Assembly (NCBI GenBank): GCA_033439765.1
Contig: JAULSN010000003.1
Location: forward strand, 3,410,001-3,474,000
Reading direction: 5' to 3'
Length of the DNA stretch: 64,000 nucleotides
From: Lasiosphaeria ovina
Taxonomy: Eukaryota; Ascomycota; Sordariomycetes; Sordariales; Lasiosphaeriaceae
Part shown: one piece after another, positions 23,084-63,276 of the stretch
Numbering within the stretch: position 1 is the stretch's first letter
Layout: each line of letters starts with the position of its first letter
Notes under the pieces: generated by a model
Told to the model about the DNA's origin: nothing
The model's database searches: none
The model's input: the letters and a program-made list of their open reading frames with translations, nothing else
Made by a program: the position numbers and the translations under genes

Positions 23084-25443
23084 TCAATGCCACATCCTCG
23101 CCGTCTCGGCAAATGCCATGACGCGCGCATGCAGCTCGCCCGCGCGTAGCGCCTCGTAGATATCGCCGGCCATAGAGCCGAGTATGCGGCCGTGGGACGC
23201 AAGGCGCTGCTGGTGCTGATCGGAACCGGCATAATCCACCCCGGCCGCGGCCGCGGCATTCTTGGATAGGATCTCGTTCTGAGCCCTGCGTAGTAGTAGC
23301 GGCGGATGGTCGTCGACGCCGCGGTTGAGTGGCACGGCGAGGTCGCGGCGGACGAAATCGTAGACGACGCACGAGGCGGGGCTGACATAGCGGTGCGTGG
23401 TGGTGTCTGGCGCGTCTTGATCGAGGAAATGCGCACGTATTTCCAAGAATTCGCTGGACAAAATTGCCGACGCCCGTTTCATGAACGTTCCCATGAATGT
23501 GTGAGCAATGCTCTCCTCGCCCGTTCCCCAGTTTATAAGTTTCAGAAGAATGGCGCCGAAGGAGTCATTCACCGCGGCCTCGCACCGCTCGGCCAGGTTG
23601 AGATGCGACAGCTGGTCCCAGCGCTGCAGTATGGAGTCGATAGCTTGGCTGCCCACGCGCTCGTCGAACGCGTCGAAGTTGTAATCAGCGCTATCACTCT
23701 GCCGACTTTCGAGATCAAGCCAGGTGCGCGCTGCCTTGAGGAGCGGCTCTCGCACGCGCGCGCGGAACTCGAGCTGCATGCACCGCAGGTCGAGCGCCTG
23801 GCACAGCGTGTAGATGTATGTCGCCGCCATGAGCGAGAGGACCTCCACGGCTTCGAGGGCGTAGCGCGCCGTAGCGAGCGCCATTGAGTTGACCGACTGA
23901 TTGGTCATCTCGGCGACCTGGACGTGGGTGCTCATGGGGTGGGCTAGGTATGCTAGCTCGGACATGTAGGCCGCCATATTGACGTCGAAGCCCTTGAAGG
24001 TGAACGAGTCGCTAGGGTCATCGGTACTCAGGTTGGGCGGCAGGCCCTTGTTAGTCTGGTTGTTGATGAGCTCGGAGCTCTGGGCGAAAATCAGCCGGCC
24101 CAGGTTCTGCAGTGCCGTCATGGTCTTCTCCATGGCCGATGTAATGGCCATGGCCTGGAAGTTGCCGCCGTGGTGAATCTGGCCCGTGGCTGCGTCGATC
24201 AGGGGGTTGTCCGTCGTCGAATTGAGCTCCGTCGATACCTGGCGCGTCGCTAACTCCAGATCCTCGAGCTGGGGGCCAATCCACTGCGGCGCCGTCCTAA
24301 GAGCGTAGCGGTCTTGGGCCAGCCCGACACGCTCGGGTTCGCGATCTGGCGAGATCTTGGACCCGGCAAGAAAACTCAAAATGTTCGCTGCGGCCTCGGT
24401 CTGGCCATCGTGCGGTCGCACCGACGAGATGAACGGGTGGTAATTGTGGGCGGTACCAGCGAGCGCTTCAGTGCCCATTGCCGTGAGGAGCTGCACCAGA
24501 ATGGCGAGCTGGTTTGCCTGGTGCATGACAATGGCCGCTGCCGCGCAGCTTGGGGCCGTTCCATTGGTGATGCCGAGGCCTTCTTTGGCCTGCAGACGAA
24601 CGGGCTCCAGACCGGCCAGCTTCAGTGTTTCGTTAGCTGGGAGAGTCATGCTCTTGGCCTGCTCGCCGCGAAATTTGACGAAAATATCCGGATTTCCCTC
24701 GATGGCACCTGCCACATAAGACAGGGTAGACAAGTCTCCCGAGGCAGAGATGCTCCCCCTCAGCGGCACCACGGGTGTCATGTCCCGGGCCAAGAGCTGC
24801 ATGATTGACTCTATGACACTGATGCGCACGCCCGAGTGGCCGCGCAAGAGCGAGTTGCAGCGGATGAGCATGGCGGCTCGCACAATGGGGCCAGGCAGGG
24901 CGTGACTTCGAAGCAATTCACTGGACCGTCGGCGAGGGTCTGGCCGCCCATCTTCCTGGCCCTTGCTGCGCTTGTCGCTCTGCAGCAGGATTCCAACATT
25001 GAGGTGCTGGACAGCAGCGCTCTGGAGGCGTTCAAAGTCTGCGGTGCGGGTGTCTGCGCTGCCGCCGAAGCCAGTATTGACGCCGTAGATGACCTGACGG
25101 TCGTCAAGCTGGCGCTTGAGCCAATCAACGCTATCGGCGACATTCTGGAGGATGGTTGCATCGTCGGTGAGTTTGGGTGTTGCCCCGTGCCTGCCCAAGA
25201 GAAAGAAGCGAAGTGAGCTTTGTGTTCCATGCAATCATGTCTCAGGTTGACGGCCACGGCGATTGTGGCGTCCAATGAGAATACTGACAAGGAAACGGCA
25301 ACAACGTCAGCGATCGACAAATCACGTCCCGTAATCGAGACCGAGTCTTGTGCTGCAAGCGTCTTCTGCAGCCGCGCCCATTCTGCGCGGGCAGCTGCCG
25401 CGTGTGGAGCACGAACACTGCCGGCGGTTGCTGATTGCATCAT
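23084..25443 (-). CDS. Phenylalanine ammonia-lyase (aromatic amino acid lyase, fungal type)
   Basis: Predicted exons are 25443-25289 and 25190-23084 (one 98-bp intron), giving 753 aa, as expected for fungal PAL. Features in order are a helical N-terminus; the lid with the catalytic Tyr in VIYGVNTGFGGSADTRT; SISASGDLS, whose Ala-Ser-Gly cyclises into the MIO electrophilic cofactor; GITNGTAPS; AHNYHPFISSVRPHDGQ; QDRYALRTAPQW; TTDNPL; HHGGNFQA; and a long C-terminal multihelix extension typical of eukaryotic PAL. The enzyme deaminates L-phenylalanine to trans-cinnamate and ammonia in the cytosol. In fungi this is mostly catabolic, or feeds secondary metabolism. A His at the substrate-selectivity loop near residue 80 would indicate tyrosine use; the sequence there reads LQSAAVQHLN, so Phe/Tyr preference is not settled. 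The start could be either of two adjacent Met codons (25443 or 25440). Confidence 0.93.
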
Positions 25444-36345: not shown

Positions 36346-37107
36346 TTATAAGAGGCTCTCAATTATGTGCTCGTTTCCAGTCAGCCCCCTCTCCTTGAGG
36401 TATGCGGCTCGGCGCTCTAGCAGCACACGATATGGCTCCTTGGGAACCGTCATCTCATCGTCCTCCCAGACCTGGTAGCCTGTCTCCTCCCACACCTTGA
36501 GCTGGGCTATGAAGCCGGAATTTGGCCGTACCCTGCGTTTCTGTTTGACTTCCTTGAGAACTTGATCCAGGGGTCTTTTGTGTTTTCTCATGAGATATGC
36601 GATGACGACGGTGGCGGAGCGCGAGATTCCCTTCTCGCAGTGAACCAGGACGCGGGGCGGGATCGTCTCTTGGGTCGGCTCGGATTTGACAAAAGGGTGC
36701 ATAGGCGGCTTTGGGATAGGCGGGAGGGCTAGCTGGGCGTCGATAAAATCACAGGCTGTGGACATGCTGGCCAAGAGATCCTGGTAGGGCGCATCCACTC
36801 CAATAATGTAAAGGTAACGCTCGCTGGGCACGAGCAGTTGGTAGTCGGTGCGGGTGAACCGGAGATAGCGCGCATCGAGGATGGAAAGGACAGAAGTGAT
36901 GTTGAATTGCCAGATGGTGGGGATGTGGAGAGCCGTGTCAACGTCCCCCAGGAAGAGGAATTCCTCTATCTGCGAGATTGAGGGCTGGATCGGAGGATAC
37001 AAATGCGACCATGACGTCGGTGCCGCATGTGAATCTGCATCAGCAGCCGTCAACTCGGGCGTAGACTGTGGTGTCGCATCTGAAGCCGAGGCCATCATGC
37101 ACAGCAC
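36346..37107 (-). CDS. Dual-specificity protein phosphatase
   Basis: The protein is 253 aa, single exon. Two N-terminal Met clusters are possible (37107 or 37095). After a ~40-residue disordered N-terminus comes the DSP fold: ISQIEEFLFLGDVDTAL (start of the domain), a VLSILDARYLRF strand, and the P-loop VHCEKGISRSATVV (HCxxGxxRS, catalytic Cys and Arg). AYLMRKHKRPLDQVLKEVKQ and PNSGFIAQLKVWE follow, both standard DSP blocks. Such enzymes dephosphorylate Tyr and Ser/Thr, often on MAP kinases. There is no kinase-interaction motif that I can see and no targeting domain, so the substrate is open. A Pro-rich insertion (LPPIPKPPMHPF) lies before the P-loop. Confidence 0.92.
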   Translation of the reverse strand: MLCMMASASDATPQSTPELTAADADSHAAPTSWSHLYPPIQPSISQIEEFLFLGDVDTALHIPTIWQFNITSVLSILDARYLRFTRTDYQLLVPSERYLYIIGVDAPYQDLLASMSTACDFIDAQLALPPIPKPPMHPFVKSEPTQETIPPRVLVHCEKGISRSATVVIAYLMRKHKRPLDQVLKEVKQKRRVRPNSGFIAQLKVWEETGYQVWEDDEMTVPKEPYRVLLERRAAYLKERGLTGNEHIIESLL

Positions 37108-37420
37108 GCCAAATTCGTGGACAAAAAAGCGAGAATTTTGTCGTGGGCGGCGTTACGTCCTTGCCAGTTGTGGTTGCTTTGGGCGGCACTGCTGGACAGC
37201 TGTAGCGGGGACCCGGATCGTGGGGTTGGTGGAAAGGACCTGGGAAGTGAAGGAAATGGAGAGCGAGTGCTGCGTGGAATGAGGGGGGGGGGGCGTGGCA
37301 GCTTTTGTGCCTGGGCTGCTGGCCACTAGCAACGGAAGTCACAACTTGTCTGACCGACACAGGTCACATGACGGCAAGTTTCAAATAAGAATTAGTAAAT
37401 ACACCTCAACCCACGACCCA

Positions 37421-37674: not shown

Positions 37675-39680
37675 TTGGTGTGTGTGCCAGGGACGCGGAC
37701 GCCGCACGGCCTCGCGGCGCATCGACTTTGCCTAGGCCTTGGCAGACACAAAGATTTCGGAGCAAATCGGCACCCTTCCAACCAGCCTCGTTCAAGTTGC
37801 CACCTCCGCACTGTCCAGGACACTGTAGTGACAGCACACGACTAAAAATACCTTCCGCGGAACATAAGTCGTCTCAAGATTCTGGGCACATGCGCTCCCT
37901 GCTCACTCGGCCGCTAGGCTGCGTTTGGGGGGCCCATCTACTGTGGGAGAAAGACCTTTAGCACGAAGCGATCCTGCTCAGAATGGAGTTGCTATCGAAC
38001 CAACAACATGCCTTCCACATACACTCCTCCCCATCCGATAAACACCCACCGTTCCAGTGTCACGGAGTGTCGATTATGGCGTCCACTTCAGCACACTCAA
38101 TTTAACCGCACACTGTGCCTCGAATATCAGGTCGAATTTTGACAATGACGCCATGAAGTTGCATATTGCTCCAACTCATGGACTCCGTGTCCGCGGATAT
38201 GGAGGAGGGTGTGGTGTCAACCAGAAATAACTCATGACGGCCAACCACAGACCGAAACAGAAATGGACCTGACCTCGCCGAATCCACCCATCACGCCGCC
38301 GCCGCTGGCCAACGACGACTTCCAGTTGGCCTCGAACCTCGTTCGAAAATCCTTTGTGCCTTGGACTGACTGTTCGTGGGTAGGCCGGGGCGATCTAACT
38401 GGCCGCAGCAATAACAGCAGCTTGTGCCTCCGGGTTTCAAGGAAAGATCTGAGACAGGCGCCTGGCTGATACCAAAAGTCACATCAACACCAGCATGGCT
38501 GTCTTGCGCGAGAGGTCGTGCATAAGAGAGATGGACTCATCACCGAATATCTCCAGAATATCACACACCCACACAACCATACTCATCAGCCATCAACAAC
38601 AGCCTATTCACTCTTCTTTCCTCACTCCAACCTTCACTACACTTTCTCAAAATGTCCACCAAGATTTCCGAATGCGAAAGGCTTGTCGATCGCATCGACG
38701 ACGAGTTTATCGATCCAACAAAAGCCCAGGTCGAGTCCACCAAGCCCGGTAAGATCATGGAGAGCACCGCGCTTGGGGTTGCTCTGTGGGCACATCATAC
38801 TGGCGGCTCCGGCCCCATCCTCGTCGATATGCGCATGCCCGGCTTGAAGAGAGAGCTCAAAAAACTCGCCGGCTTTGGTCTCGGCGCGCATACCACGACG
38901 TATCAAGGCGTCACGTACAAGTTCGTCAAAAGTAAGTGTGGCCGAGCTGCTCCGCCGTTCCTTGGCGCACAGGGAATTTAACTTCGCTAACTACCCAATG
39001 CCGGGAACAGCGGGAACAGCGAAAAATTCTAGCAGCACGGATAGCAACCTCTCCAGCTTGTAGGGGTCTGGGCTGGCGCGTGAGGTGTTGGGCCGGGGTG
39101 TCGTTGGTAGACGAGTGCCTAGTCCCTGGCGGACGATGACACGAGAGTTGAAATGCACTGTTTGAATCAGGCTGGTCCTGGCGGATAGTGGCATTAGAGT
39201 GTGTATCAGGCTGGTCCTGAACCGGACTTGGGATTGGTAATGATATAGGATAATCTAAGAATCAACGGGTTAATGCCTGGAATATTTTGCCCTCTCTGTC
39301 CCGCAACTGTTTTGAGTGTTCATGTCAACAACTGGCCCCAAAATCCGCAACTCGCTACAACATTTAGTCGGTTAATAAGAGAGAGGAAAGGAAGCGTTAC
39401 CTTAAATAGATAGCTGTTTTGTTTTAACTTTTAAGGTGAAATTGACAACTAAACATTGCCTTGAAACTCTTAGCAAGGTGCGAATAATACCTATACACAA
39501 AATTCCAGAGTTAAAACTTACCGCGTTCTTTTTGAATTCTTATTGGGAATGGGGTTAAACGCTGGTAGTATACCCCATTTTGCTCTCGCCACCCCCATTC
39601 GCCCCTATCCCACAAACACGCCGAGCAATCAACTAGCACAGTTCTAGTTTATAGACAAGAAACCAAGATCCACCCTTAAT
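37675..39680 (+). repeat. Segmental duplication, copy A
   Basis: This segment is collinear with 46950-49480 in the same orientation. Shared landmarks in order are gtcgtctcaagattctgggc (37868 / 47075), gccttccacatacactcc (38010 / 47825), cacgccgccgcc.ctggccaac (38292 / 48075), the small gene (38652 / 48442), and ttcgcccctatcccac.a.cacgccg (39600 / 49385). The copies are diverged, with a ~560-bp difference between the first two landmarks. Confidence 0.85.
38652..39063 (+). CDS. Small lineage-specific protein (duplicated gene, intact copy)
   Basis: Exons are 38652-38931 and 39020-39063, giving 107 aa. An alternative acceptor 9 bp upstream (exon from 39011) gives 110 aa. The protein starts MSTKISECERLVDRIDDEFI. 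A conserved core contains GVALWAHHTGGSG, and a GVTYKFVK segment precedes a short Ser/Thr-rich tail. There is no signal peptide, no transmembrane segment and no family I recognise. A paralogue at 48442 shares the core, the intron position and the upstream region, so the gene was duplicated with its promoter. It stands next to the NLR/effector pair, but a functional link is only a guess. Confidence 0.65.
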
Positions 39681-39689
39681 GATTTCTTA

Positions 39690-40180
39690 GTCCCTATCTA
39701 GACCACTGGTGCAGCCGGCGCACTGCCTTAGCCAGCTATCTTGGCACCTACCGTGACAATCCTCTCTAGGGTCCCTAGTACACCGACTACAAGGCGTTGG
39801 ATTAGGGATTTTAGCAAAAGAACTGGTCCTCGGGCTAGATAGAAGTCCCAGAAAGCTACGGCAGCCGTTAAGAAGCTTCAGACCGAGTTGGTACTTAAGC
39901 AACATAGTATTAAAGCTATAGAGATTTAACTAGAGCGCATTAGGCCCCAAAAACGAAGGAAAATTCACAATCCTAACAAGCGGTTTGTAGACCTAAGGAC
40001 TATACTATTAGGCAGCGAGGTTCCAGCAGAGCCGCAACTTGAGCCTCAAGCAGAGTCTTAAATTGAAGAGGTGGATAATGAAGATGAGGCTGAAGAAAAG
40101 GCTAACGAAGAAGAGTTGCCTGCAAGACTAACAAGATCTGGCCGTGCAATTCGTGTGCTAGCACAATATATAGATTGAGC
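39690..40180 (+). mobile_element. 3' relic of a pogo/Fot1-type DNA transposon
   Basis: One plus-strand frame, broken by three stop codons, encodes pieces typical of the C-terminus of fungal pogo/Fot1 DDE transposases. It has a Lys/Gln-rich helix (KATAAVKKLQTELVLKQHS), then LERIRPQKRRKIHNPNKRF (RPKKRKK-like block), an acidic stretch and an end in ARLTRSGRAIRVLAQYI. The DDE core is absent. The relic lies just beyond the 3' end of the NLR gene. Confidence 0.65.
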
Positions 40181-40360
40181 AGTTAATTAGCTACATTTTG
40201 CTATATTTGTCTTGTAATTAGCTTCATGATTGAGTGCGCTATTATTATTTAAAGATATAGTGTTTTGGTGTAAAATCGTGATCCACTGCTAGGGTGATCC
40301 GTTGGGGGGCGGGGTATGGTATATAAGCATATACTCTTGCTACCAATCTAAAAGAATACG

Positions 40361-43133
40361 CTAGATTAAACGACTCCACTCGGCGACGGCGGCCAAAGAC
40401 GATAATGTATATGGATGCTCTTCGCCAAGTACTCGCCGCCTAGCCTGGGCGCAGTCCTCCATTAGTGCTAAAGCATCTGCGCGTCGACCTTGACCTTTCC
40501 AGGTAAAAGCGAGGTTATTCATGCTCGATAGCGTATCTGGGTGATCGGCCCCGAGCTTGGTCTTGCTCGTCTCCATCACCTGTATAAATAGCTTCTCGGC
40601 CTCCTCCCACCGGCCCTGGTTCCAAAATGTCGACGCTAGGTTGGCCATGCTCGATAGCGTAGAAGGGTGATCGGCCCCGAGCTTGGTCTTGCTCGTCTCC
40701 ATCACCTGTACTTCTAGCTTCTCGGCCTCCTCCCACCGGCCCTGGTTCCTATATGTCGACGCTAGGTTGGCCATGCTCGATAGCGTATCTGGGTGATCGG
40801 CCCCGAGCTTGGTCTTGCTCGTCTCCATCACCTGTACTTCTAGCTTCTCGGCCTCCTCCCACCGGCCCTGGTTCCTATATGTCGACGCTAGGTTGGCCAT
40901 GCTCGATAGCGTAGAAGGGTGATCGGCCCCGAGCTTGGTCTTGCGAGTCTCCATCACCTGTACTTCTAGCTTCTCGGCCTCCTCCCACCGGCCCTGGTTC
41001 CAAAATGTCGACGCTAGGTTGGCCATGCTCGATAGCGTAGAAGGGTGATCGGCCCCGAGCTTGGTCTTGCTCGTCTCCATCACCTGTACGTCTAGCTTCT
41101 CGGCCTCCTCCCACCGGCCCTGGTTCCTATATGTCGACGCTAGGTTGGCCATGCTCGATAGCGTATCTGGGTGATCGGCCCCGAGCTTGGTCTTGCGAGT
41201 CTCCATCACCTGTACTTCTAGCTTCTCGGCCTCCTCCCACCGGCCCTGGTTCCTATATGTCGACGCTAGGTTGGCCATGCTCGATAGCGTATCTGGGTGA
41301 TCGGCCCCGAGCTTGGTCTTGCGAGTCTCCATCACCTGTACTTCTAGCTTCTCGGCCTCCTCCCACCGGCCCTGGTTCCAAAATGTCGACGCTAGGTTGG
41401 CCATGCTCGATAGCGTAGAAGGGTGATCGGCCCCGAGCTTGGTCTTGCTCGTCTCCATCACCTGTACAAATAGCTTCTCGGCCTCCTCCCACCAGCCTTG
41501 GTCCAAAAGGACTCTTGCAAATAGTGATATACTCGCTAGAGTCACCACATCCTTCTTTCCAAGCCTCTTTTCTCGAACCTCCCTCGCCTTGCCTAGCATA
41601 TGCTGTGAAACCTCATATCTTCCCTGTGACCATGCATACCATCCTCCGTTATGTAAAAGAGTCGCCCATGTTTCGAGCATATCCTCACCCGGTCGGTAAC
41701 CAAGGGCTACTTGAACGTGTACAAAGAGGCTTTGACAGGTTGCCCAGTTTTCGTACTTTCCCGTTGGGAACGACGCGGCTATTCGCTCGATATATTGCCG
41801 CTTGAACGTCTCCTGCTGCCCAAACGCTTCCAGCCACCTCCTCGTCGACAGTTGCACGAGCCCGTGCATCTCAAATTCGTCTCCACCTTCGTCCACGGCG
41901 ATGAGACAGTAATCCCTTAGCATCGCCACATCATCTTCAAATCCGCTGTCCATCTTGTCCTCTGTATCATCTTGATGGGACGTACAAGTAGGGGTCGAAC
42001 GATAGTTTCTTGGTGTTGGGATTGCATCCTTGATAGTTCTGGGGGGTTTTAGAACATACCCAGGGATACCTTGTCGGTCAAAAAAGCTCATGAGTGACAG
42101 GAGATCCGCTGCAGACGGCCGCTTAGACCGGATGTACCCAAAAGATATCTGCCATGTCGTAAGAATCGCGTTCGACGCGCCTCCATCCCGCCGTAGGTCC
42201 CCAGCATCGTACTGTAAAAGGCTGCTCTTTTTGCCCTCACTCTTTCGGAACTCGGTTAGGTACTTCTCGGGTGAGCTCCGTGGCGCTCTTGCCAGTATGT
42301 AAGCGGCAGCCTGGCTAATGGCCAGCGGAACGAGGTCGAGCGCCTGTACAAGGCCGACAGCCACATCAGCATCCGGGGGCGATCCTAGCTTCTTCTCCAG
42401 AAGCGTAAGGGCGTCCGTCTGCGCCATTGGCTTGACTTCAATCATGTTCTGGCGGTGCCCCGTCAGCCTGGAAGCCAGGTCCTTATTGCGTGTTGTAATG
42501 ATGATCGATCCGTTTCGACTCTGTGGAAGGTACGTGGCAAATGGCTGCCCATTTTGTCCGTTGTCGCTAGTCGCGTCGTAGAATACGTCACCGTCGTCAG
42601 CGCTATCGAAGATCATCATCCATTTGCCATTTCGTTCGTTGGACAGCCAGCTATATACGAGCTGTGGAATGTTGGCTTTGGGTTGGTTCCGGCCGTACAG
42701 CTTAACGGCGTCGGTAATCGCCCTGAAGCCCTCTTCGACACGCGCCTGCGTGCCGGCGTGGACCCAGAATACCCATGTGTCGGGCTGCCTCGTGGCGATT
42801 CGGTGAGCGAATTCGATGGCAAGCTGCGATTTGCCAACGCCACCCAGGCCCACAAGGGCCACACGAGAGGCGGGCTTGGAACATCGCTGGTCGACTTGGT
42901 CGAGAATGTCTCCACGATTGACAAAATCGGGGTCGCGGGAGAAGGGGATGGTCGCGAAGGGGGCTGGCGGAGTTTCGGCTCGTTCTGCAGAAGTGTCAGC
43001 GTGGGCTGGGCAGGCACGGACGGACGGCGCTAGCGTTACCCGGCGGGAGGTGGAACTCCGCGTTGACCGTCCCGTAGTTCTGCCCCACCTGCTGGCCCCG
43101 GTTTCCGGCTCCGAAAGACGTGGACTGCATCAT
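40361..43133 (-). CDS. NLR: N-terminal sigma-type amyloid motif, NB-ARC, TPR repeats
   Basis: Predicted exons are 43133-43040 and 42984-40361, giving 905 aa. Residues ~5-27, almost all of exon 1, hold a Gly/Asn/Gln motif (FGAGNRGQQVGQNYGT) and not a globular domain. This resembles the short amyloid-forming motifs (NACHT_sigma type) that start some fungal NLRs. The NB-ARC domain (about 50-350) shows PFSRDPDFVNRGDILDQV, P-loop GLGGVGKS (77-84), kinase-2 WMMIFDSADD, and the sensor-type GSIIITTRNKDLASRL. A winged-helix-like part contains HGLVQLSTRRWLEAF. Residues ~528-863 are eight nearly identical 42-residue TPRs plus a diverged ninth unit. NLRs of this kind oligomerise on ligand binding and template amyloid folding of a partner effector. 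The partner is the divergent neighbour at 43326. Confidence 0.93.
40490..41495 (-). repeat. Eight 126-bp TPR-coding tandem repeats
   Basis: The shared string ctcctcccac recurs with exact 126-bp spacing at 40601, 40727, 40853, 40979, 41105, 41231, 41357 and 41483. Each unit encodes WEEAEKL.VQVMET.KTKLG and a second helix (SSMANLAST..NQGR). Differences concentrate at four places: after EKL (F/E/D), S/R before KTK, S/D after HP, and FW/YR before NQGR. Confidence 0.97.
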
Positions 43134-43325
43134 GTGCCGTTGGACAGTTGCTCAAGAGTCGATTCTCGATAGCGACGAAGCAGAAATGCTCTCCAACTCG
43201 TGCGGCTGAGTGGCCGCAGGCATCGATTCAGCTGCACGTGATTGCTGCCCCTCAGTTCCAATATGAGGCATTTGCGTCTCTCTGCTGACGCGCAAATCAT
43301 CGCAGCCGTCGACCAACTCTTCACC
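43134..43325. promoter_or_regulatory. Shared divergent promoter region of NLR and effector
   Basis: Only 192 bp separate the two start codons, so the genes probably share regulatory DNA. No clear TATA box was identified; the assignment rests on gene arrangement. Confidence 0.5.
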
Positions 43326-44189
43326 ATGGACCCGTTTAGTATCACAGCCGGCGTCGTCGGCATCCTCGGACCAACGCTACACTGTGTTCGACTCTTGGTA
43401 AAGGACCTACAAAACATCGTCGACGCGCCTGATGCCGTGACGGTGCTTACCAACGATCTCCAGTCAGTGGGCCTTGCTCTCGCTTCGGTCCAGGCAGTTA
43501 CGGACTCGCAATGGAAATCGCTGGGCGAGGCCGTTACTGTCCAGTCGAGAGCTACGATAACTTCCTGCAGAACTTCCTGCGAAAGGTTCAAGACCTCTCT
43601 CGATCGCTGGACCAGGCACAGCACGGATGGAACGCTCTCCTGGCGAGACCGCGCAACCCTGGGCGTCTTCAAACAGGGCCACATCAAATCCATGTCGGAG
43701 CAGCTTCAGAACTGCAACATTACGCTGACTTCTGTAGCGAGCATTGCAACCTTGTATGTTAGCGTTTGGCTCTAGAAAGGATAGGTACTAATATGTCCTA
43801 GTCACAGCTCCCTCCAGCAGACGCAAGCGGCCGAAGAGATCAAGATGATGATATCGAGGGAGAAGACGGCGGTTAATGATGCAATAGCCACGACAAACGA
43901 CCAGTCGGCCGAGGTTAGTGCTAAGCTGGAAGAGCTTACCCTAAAGGAGCCAGACGAAGGCGAAACGGAAGCCGATCAGGCCAGCGCGACCAAGCAGGTT
44001 GTGATGGAGAAGAGAGCCCTAGGTGAATCGCGCAAGGTTTTTGAAGGGCTGCTCTCAGTGATCCAAACAGCAGCTGCAAATGCCCAAGCAGGCCAGGGAC
44101 CAACAGTCACCTTTGGGAGCAACAATGGTGGCCAGCAGATAGGGGTGAACAACGGCACCTTCAGTGCTACGTTTGGTGGAAAGGGGTAG
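43326..44189 (+). CDS. SesA/HeLo-like cell-death effector with C-terminal amyloid motif
   Basis: Exons are 43326-43753 and 43802-44189, giving 271 aa. An in-frame alternative acceptor at 43808 removes two residues. The Met at 43326 (MDPFSITAGVVGILG) is chosen because it opens the helical N-terminal domain typical of fungal STAND-associated proteins (SesA / HeLo-like). The first ~140 residues are helical, with a hydrophobic start. A charged helical linker follows (EEIKMMISREKTAVNDAI and AKLEELTLKE). The last 28 residues carry FGSNNGGQQIGVNNGTF, which matches the motif in exon 1 of the NLR next door. In known systems such effectors form membrane-damaging assemblies after their C-terminal motif is templated into amyloid. 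Cell-death activity here is inferred from architecture, not shown. Confidence 0.88.
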
Positions 44190-45299
44190 GACTCGTGAAA
44201 TCTCTGGTTCTGTATATTTGTCCTCTTGCTTGCTTTGCTGTTTACCAATAATCTCTTCAATCCATTTTAGACAGGTATTGATCGTCTTGTGATACGAACC
44301 AGACTACGGATTCAGGCTCCGCGGGTTCGCAACGTTGTCAGCGCCCACGCCGGGCCAGATTTGTAAACCAGGGTCTTCTAGTTAAAAACTACGACCATCT
44401 CGTGCACTGCAGAGTTACAGAGTAGCTGCTGTGCGGGGTGTCCCACAACACAGAAGACAAGCGAACCAGCTTCCTTCCTGTCTTCAAATCGCTATCTCGC
44501 GGGGCCTAGTGGTCTTCGACATAGACGAAATCGGTATAATATCGAGAGAAATCGCGACGCGCGGGCGAGTTCGTAGAAGGTAGCACCTAACGACCTGGTT
44601 AAGGATTAGGGTTCGACGACAGGAGTTATGGAAGGAACCTGGCAACGCCAGGAGAAATCCGTAATTGACGTTTCCGTGGTAGCGCCATCTTCGCAGCGCC
44701 GTCTTCGCAGCGCCATCCTCTAACAAAGAAGCAGCGGCCAAGGGCTCCGAGGAGATTCGGCAATCAAAATCGCTTCGATACGCTCGGGCACGAGTGCTGT
44801 TGCTAATTGGCCCCCGTCGGGTTGTCGCAAATTCGTGTCTTGGTCGAACTCCGCGATGCGATCGAAAGCTTCGAGCGCAGGGCCAGAATGAGGGGTCCAA
44901 GGCGGCTGTTCTTCGGCTAAAATCGATGCGCCAAGGCCGCTAACACTTGCCAATGTCAGGATTTCGAGTCCATTATCGCCAGCATTCGGCTCCGATGCCA
45001 GCTGCGGCTTAAGAATCGAGGCCATAACTAACCTGGATCTTGATATAAGCCAGTGGTATAACGAGGATGATCTCAATTACCGGACCCCTGGTCGCCAGGC
45101 GTCTGACAGTCGCAGCACAAGTCCGGCCTAGCAGAACCAGCACTGAAGAGGCGGGCCGGGGCTGCCACCACTCCAGCTAGCCGACTAGAACCCTAGCCTG
45201 CCATATGACGAGTCCCCGCCCACATGTATCTATTACTCCATTGAATGGAAACTGCTATTGAAGAAAGGAAGACTGTCAAAGCTTACGAACGATGCAGAA
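44190..45299. other. Intergenic with one unsupported frame
   Basis: A minus-strand frame at 44720-45076 contains a Met-started segment (MASILKPQLASEPNAG) of ~100 residues that ends without any recognised domain. A 15-bp unit (ggcgctgcgaagac) is repeated about three times near 44690-44720 in reverse. No sesB-like hydrolase was found. Confidence 0.4.
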
Positions 45300-46320
45300 C
45301 AAAACCTCGTACTAGCACCTGGCGCTTTTTAGGACCAGGCCTTGAAGCCGAAGCTACAGCAGCTTTCAGCGAAGATTCCACGAAATAAGTGCTACGAACC
45401 AGACGAGACGAACACCGACCGCTCCCAGCGAGATCTGACCAAACGCTTCGACGAGCTAGACATCGATTGGATGGTGGTGGAGGACCAGATGATGGCCTTG
45501 AGCTATCTTCTCCGTGAGGGGAAGCGGCTGAGGATGACATCTCTTCATTTACAAAGAGACTACACAACAGGTTGCTATAAGGACTCACTCAGCAGACTAC
45601 AAGGCGATGAGGGGTTACGGCTACACAGCTTACGGAAAGGGGGGAGCTCCTTGAAGAACAAGAGGCCGCAGGCCTGACCACTGTCTAGAAAGAAGTTTAC
45701 AGTCTCATACGGTGCACCGGTTCTCTATGCCAAGGCACTTATTACTAGCGGGATCCAGACAGTAGGAAGCACTTCAAACTTGGCACCAGCGTCTTGACAA
45801 GGCTTATCGGCTACGCTGAGGAGGGTAACACGCTAAGGACTCATGGGGGCGTACCGCCGTAGATCCGCGAGCTGATCTATACTAAGAAGGAGCAACAAGA
45901 CTCGAGCGTAGGAAGAGGAAGCGGCAAGCGTCCTTTCCGGCAGCTTACCCATTATCACGGATATCATGCCTGCACGTTGCAACCAAGACCCGGGTGGCTG
46001 GTCCACCGGGTCAACTCCAGAAACTCGAGAAGAGGTGGGCATTTGGCATCCCGACTAACCTTGAGATCCCGCGGCCGATTGATAAATCTCTGTACCGTTA
46101 TTGTGAGTGGCTCTGCGCAGGAGTGACTGATCCAGTGTGAAAGGACGGCTACCGGGACGCCTGTAAGATTGCATTAGAAGAGTGTCTCGATCTTGAGCGG
46201 CTCTACTCTACTCAGGATGTGGAAGCCAAGTCCCTCGTTGAGAAGGGCATTAAGCGCGGACTTCCATCCAGTTTATCAGCAAGGCGAAGGCTTGGTTAGA
46301 AGAAATGTAAACGCACTAGA
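45300..46320 (+). pseudogene. Degenerate copy of a repetitive fungal hypothetical gene
   Basis: Plus-strand fragments in shifting frames show protein-like sequence. At 45342-45677 there is a charged helical segment. At ~46030-46310 there is a C-terminal block with IDKSLYRYCEWL, ACKIALEECLDLERLY and VEKGIKRGLP. This block is interrupted by a TGA where Trp is expected. It resembles a family of fungal multi-copy proteins of unknown function whose C-terminus reads Y.EW...V......F..AC......DLEQ......F...GVK.G.A. The name of that family is not known to me. Confidence 0.4.
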
Positions 46321-48308
46321 ACTAGTCTCTGTTACAGATTATGGTTTGGTGGGAAAATGCCCGCCTGGGTAGGGGGCCCTGCCGGGCCCGGCTGCAAATG
46401 TGGCCTCTAGCCGTGCATCGTAGCCAATCTATGTCCAACAGAGCCAAGAGTAGTACCGTTGGAAAGCCCTTAAGAAGGCCGCCATTTTGGTATTTTGCTC
46501 ATTTTCTACGGCCTAGTAGTTAAGGCTATGTTGTGGAAAAAAGGTAAATTAAAAATAAGCTACCTGGCAAGTCAGGAAGGGGTCGCTGAACGGTGCCTCC
46601 GGCAGCCCTCCGGGGGCGCCTGCGGCGGGCAGCTCGCTGCGCTCGGTATTCCGCGGCTTAAGGAATCCGAGGATTATCCGATCGACCAGTCCCTGTCCTG
46701 TATTTTGACACGGACGTAAACTGGCCAATCAGCGTTCGAAAAACATTCGGCACCCTCACGGTAAAAGAGAAGAGACAGCCTCTCTATCGCAAGCTCGCCT
46801 ACGGTGGCTCCGTTCAGCTGAAAAAACGGGCTAACGTTAAATCTTCAAAAGGTACTCAGGATCAGTGTTTGGCGTTATGTTTCTGGTGTTGTGATTGGCT
46901 GCAGCCCCCCTTGTAAACCTCTGAGACTACAATTTCCCAACTATCTCTTGGTGTGTGCCGCGCCAGAGACGCGGGGCACGCATCGACTCATCCTGGGCCC
47001 TGGCGCACACGGAATTTGAAGCAAATCAGCACGCGACTAATTACCTTCATACCTAAGGCTACGTGGGACATGAGTCGTCTCAAGATTCTGGGCGCATCCA
47101 CTTTTAGGCTCACTCCGCCGCCAGACTGCGTTTGTGGGCCATCATGGCTCAGGGACAAGAGGTCCGAAAGGAGAGGGCATGGTTCATTGCACTTTGTCGG
47201 ATGAAACCTGCTTGAGCTTGACTTCGGGTTCAGTGTGGGTGGTCATTAATCTCGCATGTTTCCAATATTATGGCGGGAATTCGTTCCGCGGAACCTCGAC
47301 CATTCTGATTAATCACTCTGGACTGATCAGGAACAACCATCTTCTTGACCGCAAGCTAGGCTAGGCCGAGTACCTTGAAGCTGTGCCCCTTGAGCTCCCT
47401 CCTATTTTGCTCGAATGATATCCTAATTAGTCCCGTGTCACCCGTATGTCATTTGGGCCCTGCCAAAAGCTTCCCACCCATCAACAGACACATATTTGGC
47501 ATCTCAGTCTAAATTCTGATCCTAAAACAGGGGAGAAATTTTAGCAAATGCATCCAAAGCTCTGTCCAGGGCATTCGTATGGGTAAATCACGGCTGTGGA
47601 GTTCCAATTAATCATATCGGGGATTCAAATACTAGTTAACCCCATCCACTGTCCGAGGAAGACATTACCTTGAGCACGAGCCGCAAAGATGCCAGGCCCC
47701 CACGGCTTGGACATCCACACGGCAACAGTCCTTCAGGCATTAGAGGATGATGAAAAGTCCAGATTCTCCGCAATTCTGCTTCTCACGGAGTTACTACCCA
47801 CCTAGTGAACGAACCCAACAGCACGCCTTCCACATACACTCCCTCCCATCCTGGATCTGCACCCCCCACTGTTCCAGCGTGGCGTTGACTACGGCACCCT
47901 CAACTTAGCTACACGTAACTTAGTCGCACAATGTGCCTCAAAAATCAGGTCGAATCTCGACAACGACCCCGTATGTGCGGATAGGAAGAGGCTGTGGTTT
48001 CAAACTAGAACAGCTCACCGCGGCCAGCCACGGACCAAAATAGAAACGAACCTGACTTCGCCGATTCCACCTACCACGCCGCCGCCTCTGGCCAACAACG
48101 ACTCCCAGTTGGCCTCGAACCTCGGTCGAAACAGTTTGCGCCTTCGAGTGACTGCAGTTGGCGATTGGCGCGATCGAACTGGCTGTAGCTAATTATGGCA
48201 GTAGATTGTGCCTCCGGGTTGCACTTGAAGGTCTGAGACGGGCGTCTGGGCGAGAGCAAAAGCCACGCCAACATGACCACCGCCGAGGGTTCTGGCGTGG
48301 GAGATTCG

Positions 48309-49627: not shown

Positions 49628-51325
49628 TTACTTCAAGCCCAACGACTCCTCCATGACGTGGAGCGCGCCAAACAGCTCATTGTCATGGTGCCTCCTAGCC
49701 ACAATCTGCAGCCCCACAGGCGCGCCCTCGAAGTCGCCCTCATCCCACAGCTGCCTGACATGTCTGCACTCGTCGCTCAGCGGGACCGCACATTCCTCCG
49801 TGTACCCCTCCTTACCCTTCGCCAGCGCCACTACAGGCGTCGGCACAGCCACACCAGGATAATCAACATAGTTCCAAAACGCACCGTAATTCCAGTACAG
49901 CCCCGTCTCATGCACGGGCGCGGGCCCGACAAAGGCCGGACACACGACCACGTCGACATCCTGCGCAGTCCAGTGCGCCGCAAACGCGACCCTGAACGTG
50001 TCGCGCGCCACACGCAGCGCCAGCACGCCCGTCGCGCTCAGCTCACCACCCGCCGCCGCCGCCGCGCCATCCCGGATGATCCACTCCGTCAGCGGGAACA
50101 TGGGCTCGCCGGCGGCCGTCAGCGCCGCCTTGAGCCCGCGCCCGCCGTCGGGCCAGTACGCCGCGCGCTGGCTGGCCATCACATGCGCGCTGCCGTACGG
50201 CGCGAAATCCTTTGTCTCGAACAGTCCCGGCGCTGCCGCGTCGAGCTGCGCGCGCGCCCAGGCCAGCGCGCGCAGCACGGGTGGCTGCGGCACGATGGCG
50301 CCGTCGTGCGTCATGAAGCCGACCTTGAGCTGTTTTTGGTAAGGGACACCGGCCAGGCCAGTCCACGGCAGCGGCGCGAGGCTGGGATCCTGGAGGTACG
50401 GGCGGGCAGCATGCACGACAGAAACGAACAAGTCCATGTCGCGCAGCGACGAGGCGATTGGGCCGGCGGCCGCGGGCACCGTCATCGTGGCCGCGAGGCC
50501 GCCCTTGACAAAGTCGTGGATGGGGAACAGGGCGGCCGACGTCGACTTGAAGCCGTAGACGCCGGACAGGGCGGCGGGCCCGCGCACGCTGCCGCCAACG
50601 TCGGAGCCGACGCCTAGGACCGACCCGCGCAGCGCCACCAGCGCCGCCTCGCCGCCCGACGACCCGCCCGCCGATAGCCCCGTGTGGTGCGGGTTCAGCA
50701 CGCGGCCCGCCGGCGACGCGCTCTCGTACGACATCACCGCCTGCGGCTGCGCCGTCTTGCAGTAGAAGACGGCTCCCGCGGCGCGCAGGATCGCTACCAG
50801 CTGGCTGTCGGCGTTGTCGACGTGCCGCGTCACTAGGAGTCCGGCCGAGCTGGTGTGGCCGGCGAGCGGGATCATCTCTTTGAGGCTGACGGGCACGCCG
50901 TGCAGCGGGCCGACAGTGGTGCCGGTGCGCGCGAGGTGCGCGTCGAGCTCTTGCGCGCGCGCGACGGCCTCGTCCATGAACCACTCGCTCAGGCAGCTGG
51001 TCAGCTGGTGGGCGATGATGGCGCGCTTGGCGAAGGCCGTGGCGACGGCGACGGCGGTGAGTTTGCGGGTCCGCATGGCCTCGGCGAGCGCAACGGCGTC
51101 GTAGTTCTCTGTGATGGCGAGCTCCTCGGCCGTCAGCAACCCGCACTCGCGCGGGATGGCCGTGACGTCCTTGGGCGCGCTGTCGAAGACGGCCTGCGCG
51201 AGGAAGAGTTCCCGCGGCACCTTGGCGGCGAACTCGGCCAGGATGGACGCGCGCTGCGCTTCGTACTCGGGCGGCCCCGACGGGACGGGGACCGGCTGGA
51301 AGACGGTGAATTTGGCGGAGGCCAT
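49628..51325 (-). CDS. Amidase (amidase-signature family)
   Basis: The protein is 565 aa, single exon, starting [15 protein letters not shown]. The Ser-cisSer-Lys triad is visible: Lys in [14 protein letters not shown], the first Ser in the Gly-rich [18 protein letters not shown], and the nucleophile Ser in [20 protein letters not shown]-terminal blocks include [10 protein letters not shown] and [19 protein letters not shown], typical of fungal acetamidase/fatty-acid-amide-hydrolase-like enzymes. It hydrolyses amides to acid and ammonia, probably in the cytosol; the substrate is not predictable. There is no signal peptide. It starts 150 bp past the end of duplication copy B, on the opposite strand, and is unrelated to the immunity-type genes. 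Confidence 0.95.
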
Positions 51326-53086
51326 GGCGGGCGAGCGGCTGACGCGGTGGGGCTATGTGATGTGGGAGGAAAACTGTGGCGATTTGTCTTGTTTATCGAC
51401 CTGTCTTCGTCCTGTCTGCTGTCTTCATCTTTCACCTCCCGAGTCCCAACTACCCCTCTTTATCGTCTCAACGCCGAAAAGGGGCCGGCTCAGCCGGTTC
51501 TAAACTATCTTCCGCGGGCTACTGATCAGCTTTAATTAGTAAGGGCTCTGTACGCGCGAATACGAAGACGGATGACAAATGCGTATACAGAGATATTCCC
51601 ACAACCAACAAGCCAATGACGACATGGTTCCCAAAGGATCAAGCTCTTATGTTACGTCAGAGATAAGCAGTCGAATCCAACATGGTTGCAACAAATCCGC
51701 CATTTGGCTTCCCTAATTCTGATTAATTATGAATCATGCCGATTGGTATGGTGTGTTACGAGCAGGCCCACATATGGGGCCGTGTTCTTGGCATTCGGCC
51801 TTCCGTCCGAGAGATGCCCTATCCAGCCCGCCCTTTCACAGGAAAGGGGAAAAGGGGGTTATTTACACCCCTGCCTTAGTTATGTAATCTAATTAGTACG
51901 TTTCTTTCATTTTTTCCATTCTAGGCCAACCCACTTCGTATAAGATGGCCCCTCTTTATAAATCACGTTCTTCCACCACTAATTAAGGGATGGCAGAATA
52001 TGAGTTTATTCTAAAAACAAAGGATATATCTCCCGGCGTGAATATGGGGCAAGCGCTATGGCGTACAACTATTGGTGACCTTAGAATTTGATATCCCATA
52101 GAAATCCTATACACGGCTGAATTAAGCGAACTATTGGCCACAATGACTCTCCCAGGCTCCATTTACAAGACAGATTCTTCAAACAGCAATTGGGAAAATA
52201 ATATACTGTCTGGCAAGGGCCCAACGAATAACGCATGCTCCCTACTTGCACCCCCTGTCTCTGCCGCTTATTAAAGAGGCAGGGAGCCGCCTGTCAACCG
52301 CTAAAATACGATAAAAGTCCAGCAATGATCTTATAAATGTTACCCCCCAACATTTGCATTCGGCCTATCGCCTATCAGCCTCGTAATCACTCCCCTTCTC
52401 CGGGCCGGTCCCCTTCTCGTCGAAGCCAGTCCTCACACCGACCATCGCCTTCGCGTCGCTGAAACCCCAGCCGACGCTACTGTGTGTCTTCTCTCATATC
52501 TTCCCCCCTTCCTGCATAGCGGTGGTGCGCAATCCCTTGCTGCTTCTAGTTCTACAACGCTACTAATATCTCAGGCATGCTAGGGTTCGGAGGCGTAGCC
52601 GATCGCGCGAAGACATGGAGTTTCAGGAGTGTCCTCGACAATGAGCTTTGTGTGGTTGCCGATGTAGTAGATGACCTAGCTTGAAGGGGGAGGGGAAGCA
52701 GGTGGCATGTGGACGAGGGCGGGGAAGGTCAGCGGGCAGCGCGAGCCAAAGCGGTTATCGAGACTGTTGGTTGGGTCAGCAAGGGGATTGTAGAGCAGGG
52801 GTGAAGCGTACTCGTAGGATCCAATAGAGTATCCTTGACGGCGCGATGCTAGATATGTGTCACATTCGAGATGTCTGGCGTCCTTTTTTCGCACATTGAG
52901 CCAATGTCAAACCACCGATGCCCGTGCTAACGAAGATAATATGGGGTTGCTTCGACACTATTCTTGGACAAGTCCAATATTCGGTGACTGCTAGTTACGA
53001 GCGCGATCGCCGCCCACCGTTCTCTGTACCATTATTGTAGCCTGATTGAGGCTTCTGATACTGGTAGAGAATCCTGTAGGGGTCTC
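51326..53086. other. Intergenic, no supported gene
   Basis: This stretch is the amidase upstream region, then about 1.5 kb of moderately AT-rich DNA with only short frames. No repeat or RNA gene was recognised. Confidence 0.45.
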
Positions 53087-57541: not shown

Positions 57542-58739
57542 TTAACTCCTATCAGCGTTAGCAAGCCCTAGCAACAATATACTTATGCAGCAAATCATCA
57601 GCATTCTCCCAGTCCAAAAAAACCGTAATCTTTCCTTGTGCCCGGCGACTTGGCCCCTCTCCTCCCCTGCATAACTTGTATCCTCCCCCGGCAAACGGCG
57701 CATAATTTGCACCGTCGTTTCTTCCTGGAATTGGTCTATCCTCAGCTCGTAATCTCCAATCAGTGCGTGGAGGAAGAACTTTGGCAGCAATGTTTCGGGG
57801 TCGTCCCACTCTGCCACGGCCAGCGTACGCTCCAGCAGCTGCCTGTAATAGCTTTTGGCTAATCCTAGCTTGCCCTCTTGCAAGACCGACCGCAGCGGCT
57901 AGGTCGCTAAGCGCCGCCCTTGATTCTGGGTGCGTGGGACCCAGTGTGAAGTCGCAGACCGCAAGCAGTATTGCGCATAGCTCATGCGAGTCGCGTGCCT
58001 GGCCTTCCATGCGGGTTACCCTCGCGAGGCCAGATAGGCTGCGCCGAGTGTCGACATGGCAAGACCCTAGTGTCTCCTTTCTTCGTTCTAACAGGACCCA
58101 ATAAAGGTGCCGGGCGTCTGTAAACTGTGCTTGGGCTTCGGCTTCAAGGGCGCTTTCTTCCAAGCTCTTGAAGACCATGGGTTCGTCGGATTGCCAAACG
58201 GTGTGATCCAGCCTTTGAAACCATGGCCTTCTTAGACCGTTCCGAGCAGCTGGCTGCTGGATCTTGGGAAAATTAGTTTTAGTCGCGCCTCGCATCCCTA
58301 GAGAGGCCGATAGTGGCTGCGACTTCCATTTTCGATATTTTAGGAAAAGCTTCTGCTTCTGCTCGAGGGATAGCAGCTTCTGGACGTGTTCCGTTAGTGC
58401 GCCGGGGCGGGCGAGATCTCGCCGGCATTACACCGCTGCCTCCTCGTACCGTTCTTGGCTCTCCAAGTTGAGGATCAGAGCATAAGAACTGGCAAAGTCC
58501 TCACGCTTTGCCGGGGCCCGCCGATGTAAGACTTCTGCTGTCTTGTAGTCTCCCATAAGGTCGTATTCTCTCGCTATCTCTCCCACGCCCGCATCGTCCA
58601 AACTCATGTCTGCTCGCTGTAGTGCTTTCGCCAACCGCTTCTCATGGTCTCCATCGATGTGCTCGGAAATAGAGAAGATCACATGCCATACGGGGAGTGG
58701 ACTCAATCTGCTCTTTTCTCGTGCCTCATTACCTGGCAA
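57542..58739 (-). pseudogene. TPR-repeat protein pseudogene (NLR-tail-like)
   Basis: The minus strand from 58739 (MPGNEAREKSRLSPLPVWHV) stays in one frame through a TAA at about 58426 and on to ~57885, where it shifts by one to a second frame that ends at 57542. TPR-like helices are visible (EAEAQAQFTDARHLYWVLLE, then LGSCHVDTRRSLSGLARV, LGPTHPESRAALSDLA and KLGLAKSYYRQLLERTLAV). The H-P/D-T spacing is that of TPR_10/12 repeats found in fungal NLR tails. No NB-ARC domain is present. One stop plus one frameshift suggests fairly recent loss. Confidence 0.7.
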
Positions 58740-61868: not shown

Positions 61869-63276
61869 TCACATCAGATCCACCGCGGTAGCCCACTCGG
61901 GATACACCTCATCGCGCCGCGGCGTCGACGCGACGTCGCGGTCGCGGATGTACTCGCTCAGGGGCAGGCGCAAGTGCTGGCTGCGGGTGCCCATATCCAC
62001 ACCCCGGCGCTGGATGTAGCGCGCGTATCCCATGGTCTCGCGCTTCCACTCGGCGCGGCCAATGCGGCCGGCCACGTAGTCGGCGTAGAGCATGGCGTCG
62101 AGGGCGGCCTGGGCCGTCGACGCGACCGTGTGTGGGCGGAAGCCCGCGATGGCGTCGCCGATCAGCACGACCTTGCCGCCCGCAAACTCGTGCTCGGGGC
62201 TCAGCACGTCGGTGACCGCCTGCACGAACGGCCGCGCCGCCTTGCACACGACCTCGGCGAAGGGCGGCGGGAGCACGGCGCGCGCGATGTCGCGCTGCCG
62301 CTGCCACGCTGCCGGGTCCGTCATGCCCGGCGGCATGGTGATGGTGCGGCGGCGGCCGAGGCGGTCGGTGAGGATGGCGTCCAGCTCGGGAGACCCCGCG
62401 GGGAAGTTGGTGTAGTAGACGAAGTTAATGAGGCGGTGGCCAGGCTCGACGGTGCCGTTGACGCCCGGGATCAGGTACGCGAGGATCTGCACGCCGGGCC
62501 CGTGGTAGAAGGTGAAGCGTTCGGAGAAGACGGCACGCGTCGCGGCGGTGGCTTCGCCCTCGGGCACGGTGCCGCGCAGCGCGCAGTAGCCGGCGTAGGT
62601 GCGCTGCACGTCTGGGGCGAAGAGGGAGCGCACGGTTGAGCTCGGGCCGTCGGCGCCGATGACACGGTCCGCGGTCAGGGAGCCGGTCGTGGACGGGTCG
62701 CTGGTCTGCTGCCATGAGACGCGCAGCCCGCTGCCGTCGGTGAGTTCTTCTATGGCGGTCACGGTGCGGTCGTGGTAGTGGGCGGCCTTGCCGTGGGCTG
62801 GGTCTGGCGGTGGGACGTCGCAGTAGGCGCTGGCGGTGCCGTCGTAGTTTGCGCGCATGATGTAGTAGGTTAAGTCCCAGGAGCTCATGTCCTGTTCCGA
62901 CTCTATCTGGTGGACAATGTTGCCCTCCCGGTCCAGGTACTGCCTCCTTATTGAGCGGACTGCGATAGGCTGTTTGCAGCGGTTGTACCTTTCGAAGAAC
63001 TCGAGCGAGTCCCCCCCCGCCACTATACCAGCTCCCTGGTCGTGCAGCAAGGGCGTCGGGTTTCTCTCCAAGATTGTGGTGTCGTAGCCCAATGCTTTCA
63101 GTGCAATTCCGGCGGCCAATCCGCCCAGAGACCCTCCGACCTGGTAATTGGTTTCGTGTTAGCAGCTGGCTTGCTTTTGTTTATTCCCTCTTTATCTATG
63201 GCCGGTGTTTGGGGGTTGAACCTACTATCACCCATTGCATCTTCTTAGGCGTCTGCCCTTCGTTGTTTGTCTCCAT
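61869..63276 (-). CDS. FAD-dependent aromatic monooxygenase (dihydroxypyridine-hydroxylase-like)
   Basis: Predicted exons are 63276-63226 and 63140-61869, giving 440 aa. The splice restores the FAD-binding WVIVGGSLGGLAAGIAL (GxGxxG-like) across the junction. Other motifs are RVIGADGPSSTVR (the DG motif, FAD and NADPH contact) and VVLIGDAIAGFRPHTVAST (the GD motif binding the flavin ribityl). The RPHT...ST variant of the GD motif and the C-terminal AEWKRETMGYARYIQRRG resemble 2,6-dihydroxypyridine 3-monooxygenase more than salicylate hydroxylase. It hydroxylates an aromatic or N-heteroaromatic ring with NAD(P)H and O2. It is convergent with the MFS gene (123 bp apart), so the two may form a small catabolic unit. 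Confidence 0.9.

Follow-up and report, generated by a model that had tools for sequence, protein, structure and literature searches.

A divergent pair of genes at positions 40361-44189 of a 64,000-nt window from the saprotrophic fungus Lasiosphaeria ovina (the window being the whole stretch of DNA analysed, to whose positions coordinates refer unless a contig is named) encodes a NOD-like receptor (NLR), resembling an immune-type sensor, and an adjacent effector, resembling a cell-death protein; the two very probably constitute the L. ovina version of the PP-motif PNT1/HELLP signalosome. This assignment is based on both genes, both motifs, the order of the domains, the intron positions, and a pairing that is conserved in other fungi. 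The kind of system is already known: in Podospora anserina, PNT1, an NLR with an NB-ARC domain and tetratricopeptide repeats (TPRs), adjoins HELLP, a HeLo-like effector carrying a PP motif (PMC7885112; statements from the literature are taken here from parts of the cited papers). An earlier note on this DNA had considered the pair possibly undescribed, a view that does not survive this precedent. Since the pair is related to a system proven in P. anserina, it is real, yet it is no new kind of thing, and the L. ovina locus is a further member of a known group.

Gene structures and correspondence with PNT1/HELLP

The features of the locus are listed below.

43040..43133, minus strand: exon 1 of the PNT1-like NLR, 94 nt, encoding residues 1-31 including the PP motif
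43065..43115, minus strand: receptor-side PP motif FGAGNRGQQVGQNYGTV, NLR residues 7-23
42985..43039, minus strand: NLR intron, 55 nt, GT-AG
40361..42984, minus strand: NLR exon 2, encoding the NB-ARC domain and the TPRs, including the stop codon
42305..42868, minus strand: NB-ARC domain, NLR residues 71-258; PF00931 at 35.5 bits against a cut-off of 23.5; coordinates hand-derived
40556..41437, minus strand: TPR array of seven near-identical 42-aa units, then one diverged and one partial unit; TPR_10 match
43134..43325, no strand: intergenic region, 192 bp between the divergent start codons
43326..43753, plus strand: exon 1 of the HELLP-like effector, 428 nt
43754..43801, plus strand: effector intron, 48 nt, GT-AG, with a TACTAAT branch-point-like sequence
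43802..44189, plus strand: effector exon 2, including the stop codon
43326..43967, plus strand: predicted HeLo-like (HELL) domain, effector residues 1-198, span including the intron; PF17111 at 59.0 bits against a cut-off of 27.2; end hand-derived
44112..44162, plus strand: effector-side PP motif FGSNNGGQQIGVNNGTF, residues 247-263, followed by eight more residues

Joining the two NLR exons yields an open reading frame of 905 aa; when numbering begins at the earlier of two adjacent ATGs, the NLR intron starts at nt 95. The spliced effector comprises 271 aa, and its intron begins at nt 429. The public L. ovina record of the effector is 100% identical to this model, and the public NLR model, B0T24DRAFT_648420 (P0070, 799 aa), has the identical exon 1/exon 2 junction; its start is two residues shorter than that of the 905-aa NLR, and its first residues are slightly different. 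P0070 also omits a 10-residue stretch and 94 TPR residues that are present in the open frame (40361-43133), probably as the result of false introns called in the repeats. The intergenic region presumably serves both genes as a shared promoter region; a bacterial-type promoter scan of 43100-43350, a scan type ill-suited to fungi, found nothing.

The correspondence with P. anserina PNT1/HELLP (Pa_5_8060/Pa_5_8070) extends from the two-gene layout and the domain order to details of the gene models. In P. anserina, an intron of 47 bp occupies nt 429-475 of the gene for the 271-aa HELLP, and one of 54 bp occupies nt 95-148 of PNT1 (PMC7885112). Effector length and both intron starts thus coincide in the two species, with slight differences in intron size (48 bp here versus 47 bp in HELLP, and 55 bp here versus 54 bp in PNT1). 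At the protein level, the effector is 77% identical (207/269) to a P. pseudocomata relative and the NLR 66% identical (549/836 columns) to a P. pseudocomata NLR. The model of this P. pseudocomata NLR includes MSDSYRFG, a sequence that the published forward primer for P. anserina PNT1 (PMC7885112) encodes when translated by hand. The motif cores differ at single positions, being GQQVG in the L. ovina receptor versus GSQVG in the P. pseudocomata NLR, and GQQIG in the L. ovina effector versus GQQVG in the P. pseudocomata effector. On the effector side, PF17111, which appears as Helo_like_N in PMC9815663 and whose present Pfam name is PigL_N, was matched by all 43 aligned effectors (43 of 69 matches were aligned).

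The likeness of the receptor-side and effector-side motifs exceeds chance: they are identical at 10 of 17 residues, and shuffling the NLR N-terminus 20,000 times never gave more than 9 identities. A search of all six frames of the 51.7-Mb genome with the last 39 effector residues recovered only three places at E<=10 (the effector, a single decayed copy, and the adjacent exon of the NLR), and a near-copy of a relative's motif recovered the identical three places. The NLR exon scores E 0.095 in the search with the effector query; since this match is weak, its significance rests on its place rather than on its score. The gene models and the motif identity thus confirm the divergent NLR/effector pair with a shared short amyloid-type motif that the earlier note had described, including a 94-nt first exon encoding the motif near the NLR N-terminus and a gap of 192 bp, here measured from ATG to ATG. 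Its placement of the second motif at the last residues of the effector is nearly correct, eight residues following the motif.

The repeat array also resembles what has been described for such receptors, for which highly similar repeats of variable copy number are a reported trait (PMC5485727, PMC7885112). Pairwise DNA identity among the seven TPR units is at least 91.3% (mean, 95.7%), and the tandem-repeat program TRF reported a 126-bp period with 7.9 copies over 40520-41508. The units vary at six positions only (7, 19, 20, 32, 33, and 39), and codon differences over the 21 unit pairs comprise 65 replacement and 24 silent changes (raw counts, uncorrected for site numbers). The number of TPRs varies in this system, from 4 to 10 among P. 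anserina isolates (PMC7885112).

Motif family and related signalling systems

The earlier note regarded the locus as a complete sigma-type two-gene unit; a two-gene NLR/effector amyloid-signalling unit is indeed what is found, but its motif belongs to the PP family rather than to sigma. A profile scan of the effector and of NLR residues 1-528 at E<=10 (program filters discard most matches above about 0.1) returned PF17046 (Ses_B) as the sole motif profile, which is labelled 'PP (misnamed SesB)' in a 2025 paper (PMC12261475) and was matched at E<=0.1 by 21 of the 43 aligned effectors. The PP core, given as NxGxQxGxN (PMC9815663), is present on both sides (NRGQQVGQN in the NLR and NGGQQIGVN in the effector). 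PP motifs mostly lie at NLR positions 5-9 and sigma motifs mostly at 50-99 (PMC9815663), and the L. ovina motif begins at residue 7, within the usual PP range. Taken together, the fit to the core, the location at residue 7, and PF17046 as the only motif profile, albeit under its curated cut-off, indicate that PP is the right family and that the sigma label is wrong.

Several arguments could nevertheless be advanced for a sigma-type unit of the SesA/SesB/HET-eN kind, acting through a sigma amyloid: the motif common to the NLR and its neighbour is G/N/Q-rich, 15 of the 43 aligned effectors weakly match SesA (PF17107) besides PF17111, and sigma units have been reported to adjoin TPR and NB-ARC NLRs as well (PMC3321046). 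Against these stand the position and core of the motif, both of which agree with PP, and the sub-motif arrays GxGxQFNxx and GGTQNINT (three repeats, PMC3321046), which were not seen by eye. At E<=10, the scan listed NACHT_sigma (PF17106) neither for the effector nor for NLR residues 1-528, and in the genome the profile gave no match at E<=0.001, though this control matched nowhere. On account of the unlisted PF17106, the PP identity of PF17046, and the PP-like core and position, sigma membership was rejected, and we regard it as most improbable.

Some observations weigh against the PNT1/HELLP assignment itself. The pair is known here from genome sequence, and the HeLo-like fold of the effector is predicted from a Pfam profile and homology; a sequence search of PDB gave eight matches, all at chance level. 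The identities reported above refer to P. pseudocomata, whose NLR and effector are linked by equal-size contigs only, and the P. anserina pair was compared by description. Of the profile checks that the earlier note had proposed, PF17111 on the effector was clear and NACHT_sigma was unlisted, while PF17046 on the isolated 54-residue NLR N-terminus reached 19.3 bits, under its curated cut-off of 23.2, and the effector motif alone matched no profile. In addition, the PP core has also been given as G-phi-Q-phi-G, with hydrophobic phi residues flanking Q (PMC7885112), and the L. ovina motifs depart from this form in having Q as the first phi, in GQQVG (receptor) and GQQIG (effector). The first phi is polar in Podospora relatives too (GQQVG in P0009 and GSQVG in P0119), and it is Q or S in 29 of 84 NLR motifs and 20 of 46 effector motifs (those in which the motif could be placed, among the 153 NLR-like matches listed and the 69 effectors). 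As polar residues are this frequent in relatives, a hydrophobic first phi seems to be no strict requirement.

The PNT1/HELLP assignment also places the pair among several characterized systems. In Chaetomium globosum, a PP-motif NLR likewise controls a HeLo-like death protein, and the CgPNT1/CgHELLP/CgSBP system has SBP, a lipase carrying a PP motif, as its third partner (PMC7885112, PMC5485727). No counterpart of SBP was found in L. ovina by sequence similarity in the six-frame motif searches of the genome, and a lipase family was matched by none of the 10 window open reading frames (ORFs) scanned, four of which matched nothing. Weak Ses_B-like genome matches away from the locus and its decayed copy (E 0.3-3.7) comprise one at C23:3309457, two on contig C27, and one on contig C12; the first was discarded as a candidate, its translation resembling neither protein of the pair. 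The sigma/ses cluster of Nectria haematococca (PMC3321046) similarly combines an NLR with neighbours sharing an amyloid motif, but differs in its motif family, its SesA and SesB effectors, and the ankyrin repeats on HET-eN. The P. anserina NWD2/HET-S and FNT1/HELLF systems (PMC7885112, PMC5485727) follow the same signalling logic, and FNT1 is also an NB-ARC/TPR protein; they differ in using the HRAM motif, with two repeats on the effector, and are reported as not cross-seeding with HELLP.

Conserved pairing and core classes in other fungi

The comparison of related genomes that the earlier note had suggested revealed at least 22 effector/NLR pairs, including the L. ovina pair, among the matches listed (69 effector matches and 153 NLR-like proteins; best 120 of 2,133 and best 120 of 2,662). 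Pairs were assembled by hand, either from consecutive locus tags or from equal-size contigs together with the species name; because each protein cluster is represented by the size of its longest contig, location on the same contig is only inferred. Six pairs carry consecutive tags: Collariella N0V88_006633/34, Gaeumannomyces RB597_010317/18 and RB597_008822/23, G. avenae RB594_004728/29, F. oxysporum AU210_016198/99, and Fusarium IL306_008919/20. Two further pairs lie on common contigs of 6.1 kb and 13.7 kb, and the other 13 are known only by equal, longer contig size. Where several candidates were available, one was picked (P. appendiculata, one of two effectors and one of three NLRs; F. oxysporum, one of three NLRs; G. 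tritici b, one of two models).

Close NB-ARC/TPR relatives of the receptor (P0092, P0099, P0140, P0153, P0162, P0180, P0211, P0212, and P0213) carry precomputed SesA, PNP_UDP, or HET domains; among these relatives, one receptor body is combined with several front ends.

The pairs also allow the motif cores to be compared within loci. When cores were classed as polar or hydrophobic by the residue before the core Gln, two of the 22 pairs were unscorable and were dropped (the Collariella effector model and the G. hyphopodioides NLR match lack the motif), and the classes of receptor and effector agreed in 17 of the 20 scorable pairs (Fisher p 0.003). The mean identity of cognate motifs was 10.25/17, compared with 8.59 when pairs were permuted. 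The mismatched pairs are G. tritici b and G. avenae (both Q/M, with consecutive tags) and P. appendiculata (Q/L), and in the eight strictly adjacent pairs the agreement is non-significant (p 0.20). As only one to three phylogenetically independent contrasts fall on well-supported branches, significance is out of reach. Published statements on this point concern motif similarity in general: motifs are more alike within clusters at sigma loci (PMC3321046), and for PP, within-cluster identity is described as comparable to between-species identity (PMC7885112). A limited search of the open-access literature, which did not extend to the original C. globosum paper, found no report of polar/hydrophobic matching.

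The phylogenetic distribution of the classes was examined on several trees. A tree of 20 NLRs requires seven class changes (shuffled mean, 6.0), compared with two on the effector tree of matching pairs, and an approximately unbiased (AU) test rejected a single clade of five polar-motif Sordariales NLRs versus five others (p 0.019; the group was named post hoc from the tree). Together, the class changes on the two trees and the AU test would be compatible with movement of the motif exon along with the effector. On a tree of 84 NLRs, among the matches listed, the classes are clustered, with 10 changes versus 24.2 when shuffled. A speculative and unlikely proposal is that at least two PP core types exist, polar (GQQ/GSQ) and hydrophobic (GL/M/F/V/I-Q), which would be matched between receptor and effector at each locus as a specificity code, and that the 94-nt motif exon, linked to the effector by the shared promoter region, would move with it as a cassette while NB-ARC/TPR bodies are swapped behind intron 1.

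Proposed mechanism, possible decay, and surroundings

In the proposed mechanism, the TPR array, which the earlier note had taken as the sensor and which is still presumed to act as such, would sense a ligand, upon which the NB-ARC domain would oligomerise and bring many N-terminal PP motifs together. The clustered motifs would adopt a RHIM-like amyloid fold and serve as a template for the PP motif at the C-terminus of the neighbouring effector. The HeLo-like domain of the effector, of four-helix-bundle type, would then relocate to the plasma membrane and kill the cell. Prion formation, templating, membrane relocation, and death have been shown in P. anserina and C. globosum (PMC7885112, PMC5485727). 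In P. anserina, PNT1 1-31 and HELLP 214-271 form prions and convert each other, and templating of HELLP leads to its membrane relocation and to cell death (PMC7885112). Activity is proven for that pair, whereas for the L. ovina pair we infer by analogy that prion formation, mutual conversion, membrane relocation, and death may occur.

It is conceivable, albeit very unlikely, that the likeness of the motifs is a relic and that signalling by one or both genes has been lost at a decaying locus. Decay of this kind has occurred at two other loci in the genome, one with an effector-like and the other with an NLR-like copy, and the 9.9 kb of sequence retrieved around each contains no match to the partner. 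At the pair itself, by contrast, both reading frames are open with canonical splice sites, the P-loop of the NB-ARC domain (GLGGVGKS) is present, replacement differences outnumber silent ones among the seven near-identical TPR units, and the motifs agree as described above. The first decayed copy, of effector exon 2, lies about 173 kb from the pair on the same contig (C23:3626782-3627157) and contains TAG and TAA in the matched frames; no NLR match was found around it at E<=0.001. The second, an NLR-like N-terminal fragment at C28:3675997-3676293, shows 50% identity over residues 2-95, and its first residues match, with a PP core that is unrecognisable by eye; no effector match was found around it at E<=0.001.

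Regions of raised TpA/ApT flank the pair at 39000-40360 (1.33 at 39 kb) and 45000-47000 (1.07-1.2 at 45-47 kb), possibly representing mutated repeat or transposon remnants. An ORF at 57558-58427 weakly matches TPR_12 (26.8 bits versus a cut-off of 30.1) and is a possible further NLR-type repeat fragment. Other neighbours in the window are ordinary genes:

23084-25234: aromatic amino acid lyase
36346-37152: dual-specificity phosphatase
49628-51352: amidase
61869-63158: FAD-binding-like protein

In a survey of Sordariales, L. ovina had the highest number of NLRs of any species (162; PMC12258605), and a proven necroptosis-like amyloid signalling pair is now extended to it. With the motif family corrected to PP in place of sigma, the set of prions and RHIM motifs expected to cross-seed with the pair also changes. 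Should the matching of polar and hydrophobic core classes be borne out by further verified pairs, it would provide a simple and testable rule as to which amyloid motifs communicate.

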